Translations under genes and position numbers: made by a program
The notes under the pieces: generated by a model
The model's input: only the letters and a program-made list of their open reading frames with translations
Database searches by the model: none
Told to the model about the DNA's origin: nothing
Shown: positions 8,930 to 42,982 of the stretch, piece by piece
How positions within the stretch are numbered: the first letter of the stretch is position 1
Layout of the letters: each line of letters starts with the position of its first letter
Source of the DNA: Cystobacter fuscus
GTDB lineage: Bacteria; Myxococcota; Myxococcia; Myxococcales; Myxococcaceae
Assembly (NCBI RefSeq): GCF_002305875.1
Contig: NZ_CP022098.1
Span: 9,238,001-9,302,000 of the forward strand
Length of the DNA: 64,000 nucleotides
Reading direction: 5' to 3'

Positions 8930-10335
8930 AGGCCTCGATCGCCACACGGCTGGCCGTGATGTTCGCGGTGGCCGCGCTCGGGGTCTTCTCGTTGGTGGGT
9001 GTCGCTCTGTACCGGGTGCTCTACCGGGAGCTCGGCCGCCACCAGCTCAGCGAGGTGAACACCCGGCTCGAATACGTGGGCATGATGGTCAACCGCAACG
9101 ACAACGCCGTGTCGTGGCAGAACCTCCGCACGAAGCTCGACACGCTCACACCCGCCGATGACAGCGTGCGGTACTGGGTGCTCGGGCCCGACCCGCGATT
9201 CGTGTACGGCGACGTCCCGGCGGAACTCCGCGAGCGGTTGGGCACCCAGGCACCAAGACCCTTCATGCTCGAGCTGGAGGGCCGCTCGATGCGGGCGGTC
9301 TCTCGCTCCATTCCCCCGAAGGGCGAGCGCCCCGCGGTCCAGATCGTCGCGGCGTTGGATTCGGAGAGGTTCTGCAACACGCTGGACACCTTCGCCGGAG
9401 CGCTCGTCGCGCTCTGCCTCGCGGGTGTCGCGCTCGTGACGTTCCTCGGCTATCGCATCGCCAAGGTCGGACTCGCGCCGCTGAGCAGCCTGTCCCAGGA
9501 GGCCCAGTCCCTGAGTCCGCGAGACCTGTCACAGCGGCTGAGGCTCTCACCACTGCCGCGAGAGCTCTCCGACCTGGCCGCCTCGTTCAACGGTGCGCTC
9601 GACCGGCTGGAGCGTGCGTACGCCCAGCTCGAGGGCTTCAACGCCGACGTGGCCCACGAGCTGCGCACGCCACTCACCAACCTCATCGGCCAGACGCAGG
9701 TCGCGCTGGCGAAGGAGCGGACCGCGGCGCAGCTCGAGGAGGTCCTGCAGTCGAATCTCGAGGAACTCGATCGCCTGCGGAAGATCGTCAGCGACATGCT
9801 CTTCCTCGCCCGGGCGGATCAAGGAGAGACGGCGCTCGACCGGGTACACACCTCGGCCGCGGAGGAGGTCTCGAAGACCGTCGAGTTCCTCGACGTCATC
9901 CTCGAGGAGGCGGGCGTCTCCGTCCGGGTGGAGGGCGATGCCCACGCGTCGTTCGAGCGCTCCCTGTTCCTGAGGGCCGCCAGCAACCTGCTCCTCAATG
10001 CCGTCGAGCACTCCGAGCGCGGTGCCGAGATCGTCGTGGCCATCGCGCGGCGGGAGTCCGAGATGCGCATCGCCGTCACGAACCCGGGGGCACCGATCCC
10101 GGAGCAGCACCTCGGGCGGCTGTTCGATCGTTTCTATCGGGCCGATGGCGCGCGCCGGAACAGCCGGGACAACCACGGCCTCGGGCTGTCGATCGTGAAA
10201 GCCGTGGCCAAGATGCACGGCGGAACCGTCTTCGCGACGAGCGCGGAGGGCCGCAACACGTTCGGCTTCACCCTCTCGGACGCTCCACTGGCCGCGACGC
10301 CTCGTCTGGCGGGGAGGGAGTCACGCGAGGCGTGA
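8926..10335 (+). CDS. CusS-type heavy-metal-sensor-like histidine kinase
   Basis: A 469-residue membrane kinase. TM1 (about 9-30), a periplasmic sensor region of ~125 residues, TM2 (about 155-178), HAMP, HisKA with the H-box [14 protein letters not shown] (His244), then HATPase_c with N-box ([11 protein letters not shown]) and G-boxes ([22 protein letters not shown]). The architecture and the two-gene order match the heavy-metal sensor kinase family. Its partner is the regulator immediately upstream (ATGA overlap). The periplasmic part is not rich in His, Cys or Met metal ligands, so the ligand may be a membrane-active compound instead of a metal. Confidence 0.92.
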
Positions 10336-41623: not shown

Positions 41624-41729
41624 TGATTTTCCCTCTTGGCCGGCTCTGGCTCGCGGATTGAAACGACGTGTCCTGGATGGACCCATTTTCCGGGCGCCCA
41701 ACCTGACATCGGATGCGCTCACATGCAAC

Positions 41730-41745
41730 TGCCAGAACGATGCCA
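41730..41745 (-). promoter_or_regulatory. Sigma-54-like -24/-12 promoter of NTF2-like copy A
   Basis: Read on the minus strand this is TGGCATCGTTCTGGCA, with the invariant GG-N10-GC spacing of sigma-54 promoters (consensus TGGCAC-N5-TTGC). The predicted transcription start is near 41719, giving a ~96-nt leader. The same element, at the same distance, precedes copy B, which makes chance unlikely. It lies in the 320-bp gene-free stretch 41624-41943, where I see no open reading frame of interest. Confidence 0.55.
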
Positions 41746-41805
41746 TTGCCCAGGAGGGTGATGCGGCGGCACACCCCTGGTGAAACATCCTGGAATCCCT
41801 GAAGG

Positions 41806-41836
41806 TGTGATTTACTTCACACCTCCCGATGGGAGG
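41806..41836 (-). promoter_or_regulatory. Palindromic upstream activator-like site of copy A
   Basis: TGTGATTTACTTCACA (41806-41821) is TGTGA-N6-TCACA, abutted by the hairpin CCTCCCgatGGGAGG (41822-41836). The palindrome is centred about 95 bp upstream of the predicted sigma-54 start, the usual distance for an enhancer-binding protein. Both parts recur before copy B. The half-sites also equal the CRP consensus. Confidence 0.55.
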
Positions 41837-41943
41837 GTCAATCCTCCGGGGGAGAGTCAGTACACACCCAGACGTCCATTCCCGACTCCGCATTCCACTG
41901 TCCGTGAGCCGAGGCGGGCCCCTTCCCAGACTCCGCGTGTCTC

Positions 41944-42507
41944 CTACTGGATGACCGTTCCCATCAGGCTCGGAGCAGCAGGGGCTTCGTAATGGAACGA
42001 GATGGACTCATGGAAGTGATGATAGAGCCATCGCCCGCCACGCTTGCGGAGTACGAAGGTGGCGCGAGTGGGCTGCTCCAGCACCTGCCCTCCCGCCCTG
42101 ACGCGGTAGACCCAGTTGAACTGGCAGAAGACATACGCCATGTCACCCTTGAGGAAGATCCGTAGATTCGTGACCTCTCCGCTGTAGACGATGAGGGTGT
42201 TCAGGAAACTCTGATAGTAAGCGCGCAATTCCTCCGCCCCGGAGAGGGGCTGATCCAACTCCGCGGCGACATACGACACTCCCTCCGGGGCCCTGTGATC
42301 CCAGAGGTTGAGCAACAGCCGCATGTCCTCTCGGATGAAGCCTTCCGCGTAGCCCTCGACAGCCCGGAGGATGGCCCGCTCCTCGACCCCCCCCATCTCC
42401 GCTGTCACCGCGGGTGACGACGTGTCACAGCAGGAGTCCGACGCCTTGCTGGAACCCTGGAAACCCATCACGAGAACGAGAACGGAAACAAATGGAATGG
42501 TCCGCAT
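41944..42507 (-). CDS. Secreted SnoaL/NTF2-like protein, copy B
   Basis: 187 residues, paralogous along its whole length to copy A: signal peptide (about 1-22), Cys pair in SDSCCDTSS, AILRAVEGYAEGFIREDMRLLLNLWD, VAAELDQPL, MAYVFCQFNWVYRV, QPTRATFVLRKRGGRWLYHHFHES. The conserved post-signal CC and the C-terminal H(F)HES may be functional. The ligand or reaction is unknown. Copy B lies upstream of copy A on the same strand with its own complete promoter region, so the two could be expressed independently or in response to the same signal. Confidence 0.87.
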   Translation of the reverse strand: MRTIPFVSVLVLVMGFQGSSKASDSCCDTSSPAVTAEMGGVEERAILRAVEGYAEGFIREDMRLLLNLWDHRAPEGVSYVAAELDQPLSGAEELRAYYQSFLNTLIVYSGEVTNLRIFLKGDMAYVFCQFNWVYRVRAGGQVLEQPTRATFVLRKRGGRWLYHHFHESISFHYEAPAAPSLMGTVIQ

Positions 42508-42613
42508 GATCCCCTCGAAGCCAGAATAATCAACACACCGAAGTGACAGTTCCTGAATGGTCCTGCCCTATGGCACCCACTCGCGTTCCTGCCTGGATGC
42601 GAATGCAATCAAT

Positions 42614-42629
42614 TGCCAGAAGGGTGCCA
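42614..42629 (-). promoter_or_regulatory. Sigma-54-like -24/-12 promoter of NTF2-like copy B
   Basis: On the minus strand TGGCACCCTTCTGGCA: a perfect TGGCAC -24 box, N5, and TGGCA at -12 (one mismatch from TTGCA), again GG-N10-GC. The predicted start near 42603 leaves a ~96-nt leader, as for copy A. Confidence 0.6.
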
Positions 42630-42690
42630 CGCCGCTTCACCGGTCTCGTGGCGCATTCCTCACGGTGGAGTTGCTTGTAATTGCTAGGGA

Positions 42691-42723
42691 TGTGAAGGAC
42701 TTCACACCCTCCAGGTGGGAGGG
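42691..42723 (-). promoter_or_regulatory. Palindromic upstream activator-like site of copy B
   Basis: TGTGAAGGACTTCACA (42691-42706) followed by CCCTCCaggtGGGAGGG (42707-42723). The palindrome starts 184 bp from the copy B ATG (183 bp in copy A) and is centred about 96 bp from the predicted transcription start. The half-sites are conserved between copies while the 6-nt spacer differs, the signature of a real protein-binding site. Confidence 0.58.
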
Positions 42724-42982
42724 TCAGCCCCTCCCCCAGGAGTCAATCTCTACCCGGACGCGAGGGCAGGGAATGAAGGGCAACGCGAAGAGGCGCGGGC
42801 AGCTGAAGAGCCCGGTACGAGGGAGCGCCAGGAAAAAGCCGAGCCCTTCGAGAGGAGGGGCTCGGCTGGAATCAAGGGAAGGTCGGCTCCTCCCGCGGCT
42901 GGAACATCTCCCGCGAGAAGCTGTTGCCGCATGGACAGGTGTCCGAATGCTGCTCTTCACCCCTGTCCTTGGACGTCGTTGC

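Follow-up and report, generated by a model that had tools for sequence, protein, structure and literature searches.

What would read the similar sets of short sequence elements that precede two neighboring genes of Cystobacter fuscus, here called A and B (Table 1)? Both genes lie within the window, the whole 64,000-nucleotide stretch of DNA analyzed, which belongs to a genome consisting of one 12.35-Mb contig (G000). Protein A matches the SnoaL_3 (E 3.3e-8) and DUF4440 (E 6.9e-7) profiles above their curated cut-offs, protein B likewise exceeds both cut-offs, and the two proteins are 61% identical over residues 1–170; judged by eye, both N-termini look like signal peptides. Protein matches at E ≤ 0.001 occurred in 13 of 96 family genomes and at E ≤ 1e-12 in four (G000, G033, G003, and G007), and a 195-genome sample of the phylum contained no relatives at E ≤ 1e-12 beyond these four. 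A peptide-pattern search of genome contigs returned 31 stretches, none of them a relative. The 12 clear family members are thus A, B, and a third copy, C, in G000, the orthologs of all three in G033, five copies in G003 (a genus-level group other than that of G000), and one distant copy in G007. Two minus-strand open frames that flank G003_1 (L080:7622-8191 and 9320-9922) have a near-identical stretch near the N-terminus in common, so that this copy may lie inside a local duplication.

Table 1. Genes and upstream elements of A and B, in window coordinates.
Feature	Position	Strand	Basis
Gene A, exported SnoaL_3/DUF4440 (NTF2-like) protein, 178 aa	41087..41623	-	Pfam and ORF
Gene B, paralog of A, 187 aa	41944..42507	-	Pfam SnoaL_3, E 3.4e-11
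Sigma-54-like -24/-12 box of gene A, TGGCATCGTTCTGGCA	41745-41730	-	consensus and conservation
Sigma-54-like -24/-12 box of gene B, TGGCACCCTTCTGGCA	42629-42614	-	consensus and conservation
CRP-type palindrome of gene A, TGTGATTTACTTCACA on +	41806-41821	.	center ~-95 of predicted start
CRP-type palindrome of gene B, TGTGAAGGACTTCACA on +	42691-42706	.	center ~-95 of predicted start
CCTCCC/GGGAGG inverted repeat of A	41822..41836	.	sequence present
CCCTCC/GGAGGG inverted repeat of B	42707..42723	.	sequence present
Candidate activator site of gene A, TTGACCCTCCC	41831..41841	-	alignment
Copy of this motif farther upstream of gene A, CTGACTC	41854..41860	-	alignment
CTGACCCTCCC element of gene B	42717..42727	-	alignment
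TTGACTC element of gene B	42740..42746	-	alignment

The element nearest each gene resembles a sigma-54 promoter. An earlier note on this DNA had placed such a box ~107 bp before both start codons, and the distances are correct, each box lying 107 bp from its own start codon; the predicted transcription starts would fall near 41719 (A) and near 42603 (B). Both boxes deviate from TGGCAYG-N4-TTGCW at two positions, and when GG-N10-GC was made obligatory and up to two mismatches to this consensus were allowed, the whole window, both strands included (∼128,000 positions), held only four sites, two of which are the A and B boxes. A box precedes 9 of the 12 clear family members in three genomes (A, B, and C of G000 and of G033, and G003_1, G003_2, and G003_5), with its GG 117–130 bp upstream of the start of the protein match in eight copies and 72 bp upstream in G003_5. 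The remaining three members (G003_3, G003_4, and G007_1) have no box, their best upstream GG-N10-GC showing 5 to 7 mismatches. The 16-mer TGGCAYCNTTCTSGCW occurs 11 times in 58 genomes, eight times in modules of this family and three times within long open frames. Together with an rpoN gene in G000 (one PF04552 match) and 55 matches to the sigma-54 activator domain PF00158, 49 of them above 70 bits, the GG and GC dinucleotides intact in all nine modules, including lineages that were new to the earlier note, bear out its reading of the box as sigma-54-like, and we infer sigma-54 use at A and B. In the protein tree (15 rows, one of which, G025_1, is a 41-residue fragment), the box label takes 3 changes vs. 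a shuffled mean of 2.8, and so gives no sign of a single origin.

Because A and B are tandem paralogs, and because the G033 ortholog of B is still 89% identical to it outside the boxes, their upstream similarity could be a functionless leftover of duplication. The wider alignment, in which the 161-base module of G000_B served as reference, argues strongly against this. Identity to the reference outside the boxes is 0.47 in A, 0.50 in C, 0.69 in G003_1, 0.45 in G003_2, and 0.42 in G003_5, that is, 42–50% in four of the five lineages, whereas the boxes keep 81–100% save for the lost palindrome of C. The module also recurs at copy C, 6.6 Mb from A and B along the contig, and in the separate genus-level group of G003, and a leftover of this kind seems to us extremely unlikely. 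Listed in the order A, C, G003_1, G003_2, and G003_5, the positions kept relative to G000_B are 14, 15, 16, 13, and 13 of the 16 in the sigma-54-like box (GG and GC 4/4 throughout), 10, 10, 10, 9, and 9 of 10 in the upstream element TGACCCTCCC, 6, 7, 7, 6, and 7 of 7 in TTGACTC, and 10, 6, 10, 10, and 9 of 10 in the palindrome half-sites. The earlier observation that half-sites and boxes are kept between A and B while the spacers have drifted thus extends to other lineages, with 42–69% identity elsewhere in the module. In the four lineages new to the earlier note (C, G003_1, G003_2, and G003_5), the numbers of blocks that score at least as high as a given element, the element itself counted, are 2/146 (box), 4/152 (TGACCCTCCC), 5/155 (TTGACTC), and 8/146 (palindrome). 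The box and the palindrome had been named beforehand from A and B; the TTGAC elements were picked from this same alignment, so that their ranks are no independent test, and the lineages, as paralogs of common descent, are not independent of one another.

Conservation upstream of relatives was the test that the earlier note had set for its proposal, and there the box survives and the palindrome is only partly kept. Seven of the nine modules have the palindrome within one change. In copy C of both G000 and G033 the box and the upstream repeats are intact and the palindrome is gone. G003_4 shows the reverse: TTGACTC and TGTGGAGTATTTCACA are kept along with a one-change palindrome, and both TTGACCCTCCC and the box are missing, with a TACAAT starting 22 nt past the palindrome, at class II CRP spacing. 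Its neighbor in the protein tree, G003_5 (support 94/89, slightly below the 95/80 that the program sets as its mark), combines the box with a TACATC at offset 22. G003_3, which groups with C, has lost the whole module, and the distant G007_1 carries two tandem one-change palindromes, the second of which is followed by a TA at offset 24 (the start codon of this copy is provisional). Across these copies the palindrome is separable from the promoter box, which suggests that either part can be lost on its own.

What, then, would bind the palindrome? The earlier note had correctly located TGTGA-N6-TCACA at matched distances of 183/184 bp before the two genes. These are the sole matches in the window at ≤1 mismatch, both with 0 mismatches, and their count alone is unremarkable, given that shuffled windows contain on average 1.35 matches (≤1 mismatch) and that 41 of 100 shuffles contain two or more. 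Genome-wide the pattern is different: the exact palindrome occurs 15 times in G000 against ∼0.55 expected in 12.35 Mb (derived from the 5-mer counts of the window), and a backwards control pattern occurs 0 times. Within the same genus the palindrome outnumbers its backwards control by 12 vs. 1 in G033, 6 vs. 1 in G032, and 7 vs. 0 in G034, and each of eight further genomes has 0–4 palindromes; G003 is left out of these genomic counts.

Spacing at these other sites is informative. In class II CRP promoters the site is centered at −41.5, and a TA at the corresponding distance is the start of the −10 box. We compared 44 oriented sites, which represent 22 palindromes at 20 loci (the 13 other sites of G000 and 9 of 23 others from G032, G033, and G034, these 9 lying on seven selected stretches; L089 and L092 are duplicates of each other, so that fewer than 20 loci are independent). 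A TA lies at offset 22–23 past the palindrome in 9 of the 44, compared with 16 in total over the other 42 of the offsets 1–44, and TANNNT lies there in 4 of 44 vs. 2 elsewhere; 35 of the 44 have no TA at this position. Scored per palindrome, a TA stands 22–23 nt downstream in one direction at 6 of the 13 other G000 palindromes and at 3 of the 9 from G032, G033, and G034. The palindrome is most likely a CRP-family operator, a reading that draws on its separability from the box, its enrichment in the genome, and the TA at class II spacing. As a set, the palindromes suggest that this group of myxobacteria has a CRP-type regulon whose operator is clear and whose spacing is that of class II promoters. 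The MrpC consensus TGTY-N8-RAC, as given in an excerpt of PMC4320627, is a different one, the half-sites of the palindromes here being TGTG and CACA.

The earlier note had preferred to see the palindrome as the sigma-54 activator's own site, which alone would drive a specific small regulon. Its center at ∼−95 of the predicted start suits this idea, as does the conserved spacing from the start of the palindrome to the GG of the box, 77/78 in A, B, and G003_1 and one helical turn further, 88/89, in G003_2 and G003_5, and NifA provides a model: according to a passage of PMC2820453, its upstream sites read TGT-N10-ACA and are usually 100 bp or more from the start. A and B resemble NifA–sigma-54 promoters, so far as that passage describes them, in having TGT-N10-ACA upstream of a −24/−12 box, and differ in that TGTGA...TCACA is more specific and that copy C is without it. 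In the C copies the box stands without the palindrome, in G003_4 and the distant G007_1 one-change palindromes stand without a box, and at other loci the same palindrome is accompanied by a TA at class II spacing more often than at other offsets. We therefore regard an activator at the palindrome as unlikely, and the alternative named in the earlier note, a CRP-family protein, fits better, with TA over-represented at class II spacing from the same palindrome elsewhere.

A CRP-type operator need not imply sigma-54. If housekeeping RNA polymerase read A and B as class II CRP promoters, the box would be some other conserved element; the palindrome does equal the CRP consensus, the TAs at the other loci concentrate at class II spacing, and G003_4 (TACAAT) and G003_5 (TACATC) have a plausible hexamer at offset 22. 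Against this, offset 22–23 is without a TA in A, B, G003_1, and G003_2, and C, although it has no palindrome, retains a box identical to that of B at 15 of 16 positions. A and B have the same operator as the other sites in G000 and as class II CRP promoters, TGTGA-N6-TCACA; unlike class II promoters, they place it at ∼−95 of a sigma-54-like box. We consider the class II reading of A and B quite improbable and retain the combination of a sigma-54-type promoter with a CRP-family operator.

Some of the other palindromes have features of their own. At L086:2200-2260 (G000:C1:319233), tandem palindromes, one of them imperfect, lie between divergent genes for a response-regulator-type sigma-54 activator and an FAD-binding oxidase, and on the side that faces the oxidase a TAGTCT stands at class II spacing. 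At L099, L101, L105, L089, and L092, palindromes precede genes for predicted lipoproteins or exported proteins and have flanks in common (TCGACATGA before and ATGTGGCA or CTGTGGCA after the palindrome at L099 and L101), which suggests a second repeated promoter element.

One CRP-family protein (cNMP_binding E 2.6e-26, HTH_Crp_2 E 2.3e-14) is a putative candidate for binding the palindrome. Close relatives of it are present in all 10 genomes searched, G000 itself having a second one, and the helix RES(V/A/T)NKWL appears in the best copy of 8 of the 10, the patterns missing G007 and G004. Its best full-length matches among solved structures are CRP/FNR-family regulators, and the aligned CRP/FNR-family chain 4byy reads RETVNK. 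Six genomes (G000, G003, G002, G007, G006, and G004; L106-L111) have one or two TGTGAA-N4-TTCACA-like palindromes beyond the CRP-family gene, 241–378 bp from its 3′ end, and in G000 these palindromes lie between convergent genes according to our gene calls; in G028 and G037 such a palindrome instead precedes the gene, by 101 and 126 bp, respectively. Autoregulation by the CRP-family protein was considered as proof of the operator and set aside: the palindromes lie beyond the 3′ end in G000 and five relatives, and upstream only in G028 and G037.

A better candidate than the palindrome for the activator's site is a direct repeat just upstream of it, TTGACTC...TGACCCTCCC (minus strand, 41831-41860 and 42717-42746), which the earlier note had overlooked. 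With it the conserved module of B extends to 42746, past the 42723 at which that note had ended it. TTGACTC and TGACCCTCCC are each within one change of B in all nine modules, and the distance from TGACTC to the GG of the box is 115–117 bp in seven modules and 126–128 bp in G003_2 and G003_5. The extra spacing is about one helical turn, as would be expected for looping, and in these two copies it may stem from a single common insertion. A search for the activator gene covered G000: among the 150 of 178 candidates that were scored, no activator match above 100 bits lay within ∼187 kb of A and B or ∼117 kb of C. A local activator gene was set aside, the nearest strong match in G000 being far off and the neighborhoods of the copies outside the window being judged by the first 60 residues of their open frames. 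Between palindrome and box, ∼6–30 bp downstream of the palindrome, there is also a partly conserved ATTnCAAGnnnTTCCACC/ATTnCAAnnnnTTC, kept in copy C as well even though the palindrome is lost there, which is a possible, loosely IHF-like element.

The TGACCCTCCC element also bears on the CCTCC/GGGAGG hairpin that the earlier note had described beside the palindromes. An inverted repeat with arms of 6–7 bp does adjoin both palindromes; its registers differ between A and B, and as a structure it lacks covariation support. Over the nine copies 83% and 81% of the cells pair in the two registers. The first pairs better than its own slid versions and includes one pair changed on both sides, a result matched by 99 of 500 shuffles, and the second includes none. 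Rfam at its gathering threshold had no match in the window, and the repeat is located 5′ of the predicted start. On these grounds it is very unlikely to work as an RNA hairpin or as a terminator; the inverted repeat is probably the TGACCCTCCC element beside G/C-rich bases, with no functional hairpin.

How far the module extends beyond this family was assessed with searches for the full module in 96 genomes and in 10 genomes, and for the box alone in the 58 genomes mentioned above. In the 96 genomes, strong matches to model R1 were its own nine training copies only, the next best having E 0.0097; this search scored 30 candidates per genome, so that weak copies may escape it. Model R2 recovered the same nine copies in the 10 genomes, with the untrained G003_4 at E 0.25 amid chance-level matches, and the exact pattern TTGACTCN{5,20}TTGACCCTCCC gave three matches in 145 genomes, all known modules. 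The small regulon that the earlier note had foreseen therefore stands insofar as, among the limited number of candidates scored, genes outside this family did not turn up with the full module upstream. Among the papers listed in a literature search, none dealt with the promoter series or with a CRP-type regulon of this group, which is a thin basis for calling either unpublished.

Our best explanation, which we hold with moderate confidence, joins a sigma-54-type promoter, an activator at the TTGAC repeats, and a CRP-family modulator at the palindrome. Each gene would have its own sigma-54-type promoter ∼107 bp before the start codon. A putative sigma-54 activator would most likely sit on the direct repeat, TTGACTC-N11/12-(T/C)TGACCCTCCC, which spans about −145 to −115, and reach the promoter by looping, and a CRP-family global regulator would most likely occupy the adjacent palindrome at ∼−95, adding a nutritional or second-messenger input. 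It would probably compete with or hinder the activator, as with MrpC vs. MrpB, although help instead of repression is possible. The sequences themselves establish the elements, how they are conserved and how they separate among copies, and the excess of the palindrome across the genome; from these patterns we infer the identity of both regulators and whether the CRP-family protein helps or hinders.

The closest known arrangement is the mrpC promoter of Myxococcus xanthus, presumed to be sigma-54 dependent, at which the activator MrpB and the CRP-family protein MrpC compete (PMC10701913, in the portion relevant here). As described there, it is likewise a myxobacterial promoter of sigma-54 type, with upstream sites ∼182 bp from the start codon and CRP-family and activator sites together; the two kinds of site overlap at mrpC, whereas here the palindrome sits beside the repeat, and mrpC encodes the CRP-family protein itself, whereas A and B encode predicted exported NTF2-like proteins. 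Inhibition of a sigma-54 promoter, Pu, by CRP-cAMP is described in an excerpt of PMC3900584. The putative M. xanthus sigma-54 boxes in a passage of PMC9765219 include TGGCACC-N4-TCGCG, of Nla28 type, to which the A and B boxes are close; the Nla28 half-site CT(C/G)CG(C/G)AG, compared by eye, differs from the repeat here.

The G003 copies also allow a more tentative reading, in which most copies would use a sigma-54 promoter with the operator at ∼−95. Given that G003_5 has the box plus TACATC, and that G003_4 has no box and a near-operator plus TACAAT, one family's promoter may have switched sigma factor while keeping its CRP-type operator, the C copies having dropped the operator instead; we regard this as possible, if doubtful. 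If true, the switch would make these copies a natural series in which sigma-54 control is gained and lost. The family offers a compact series of single-element changes that bears on how promoters enter and leave sigma-54 control, and on what a CRP-family protein does there.
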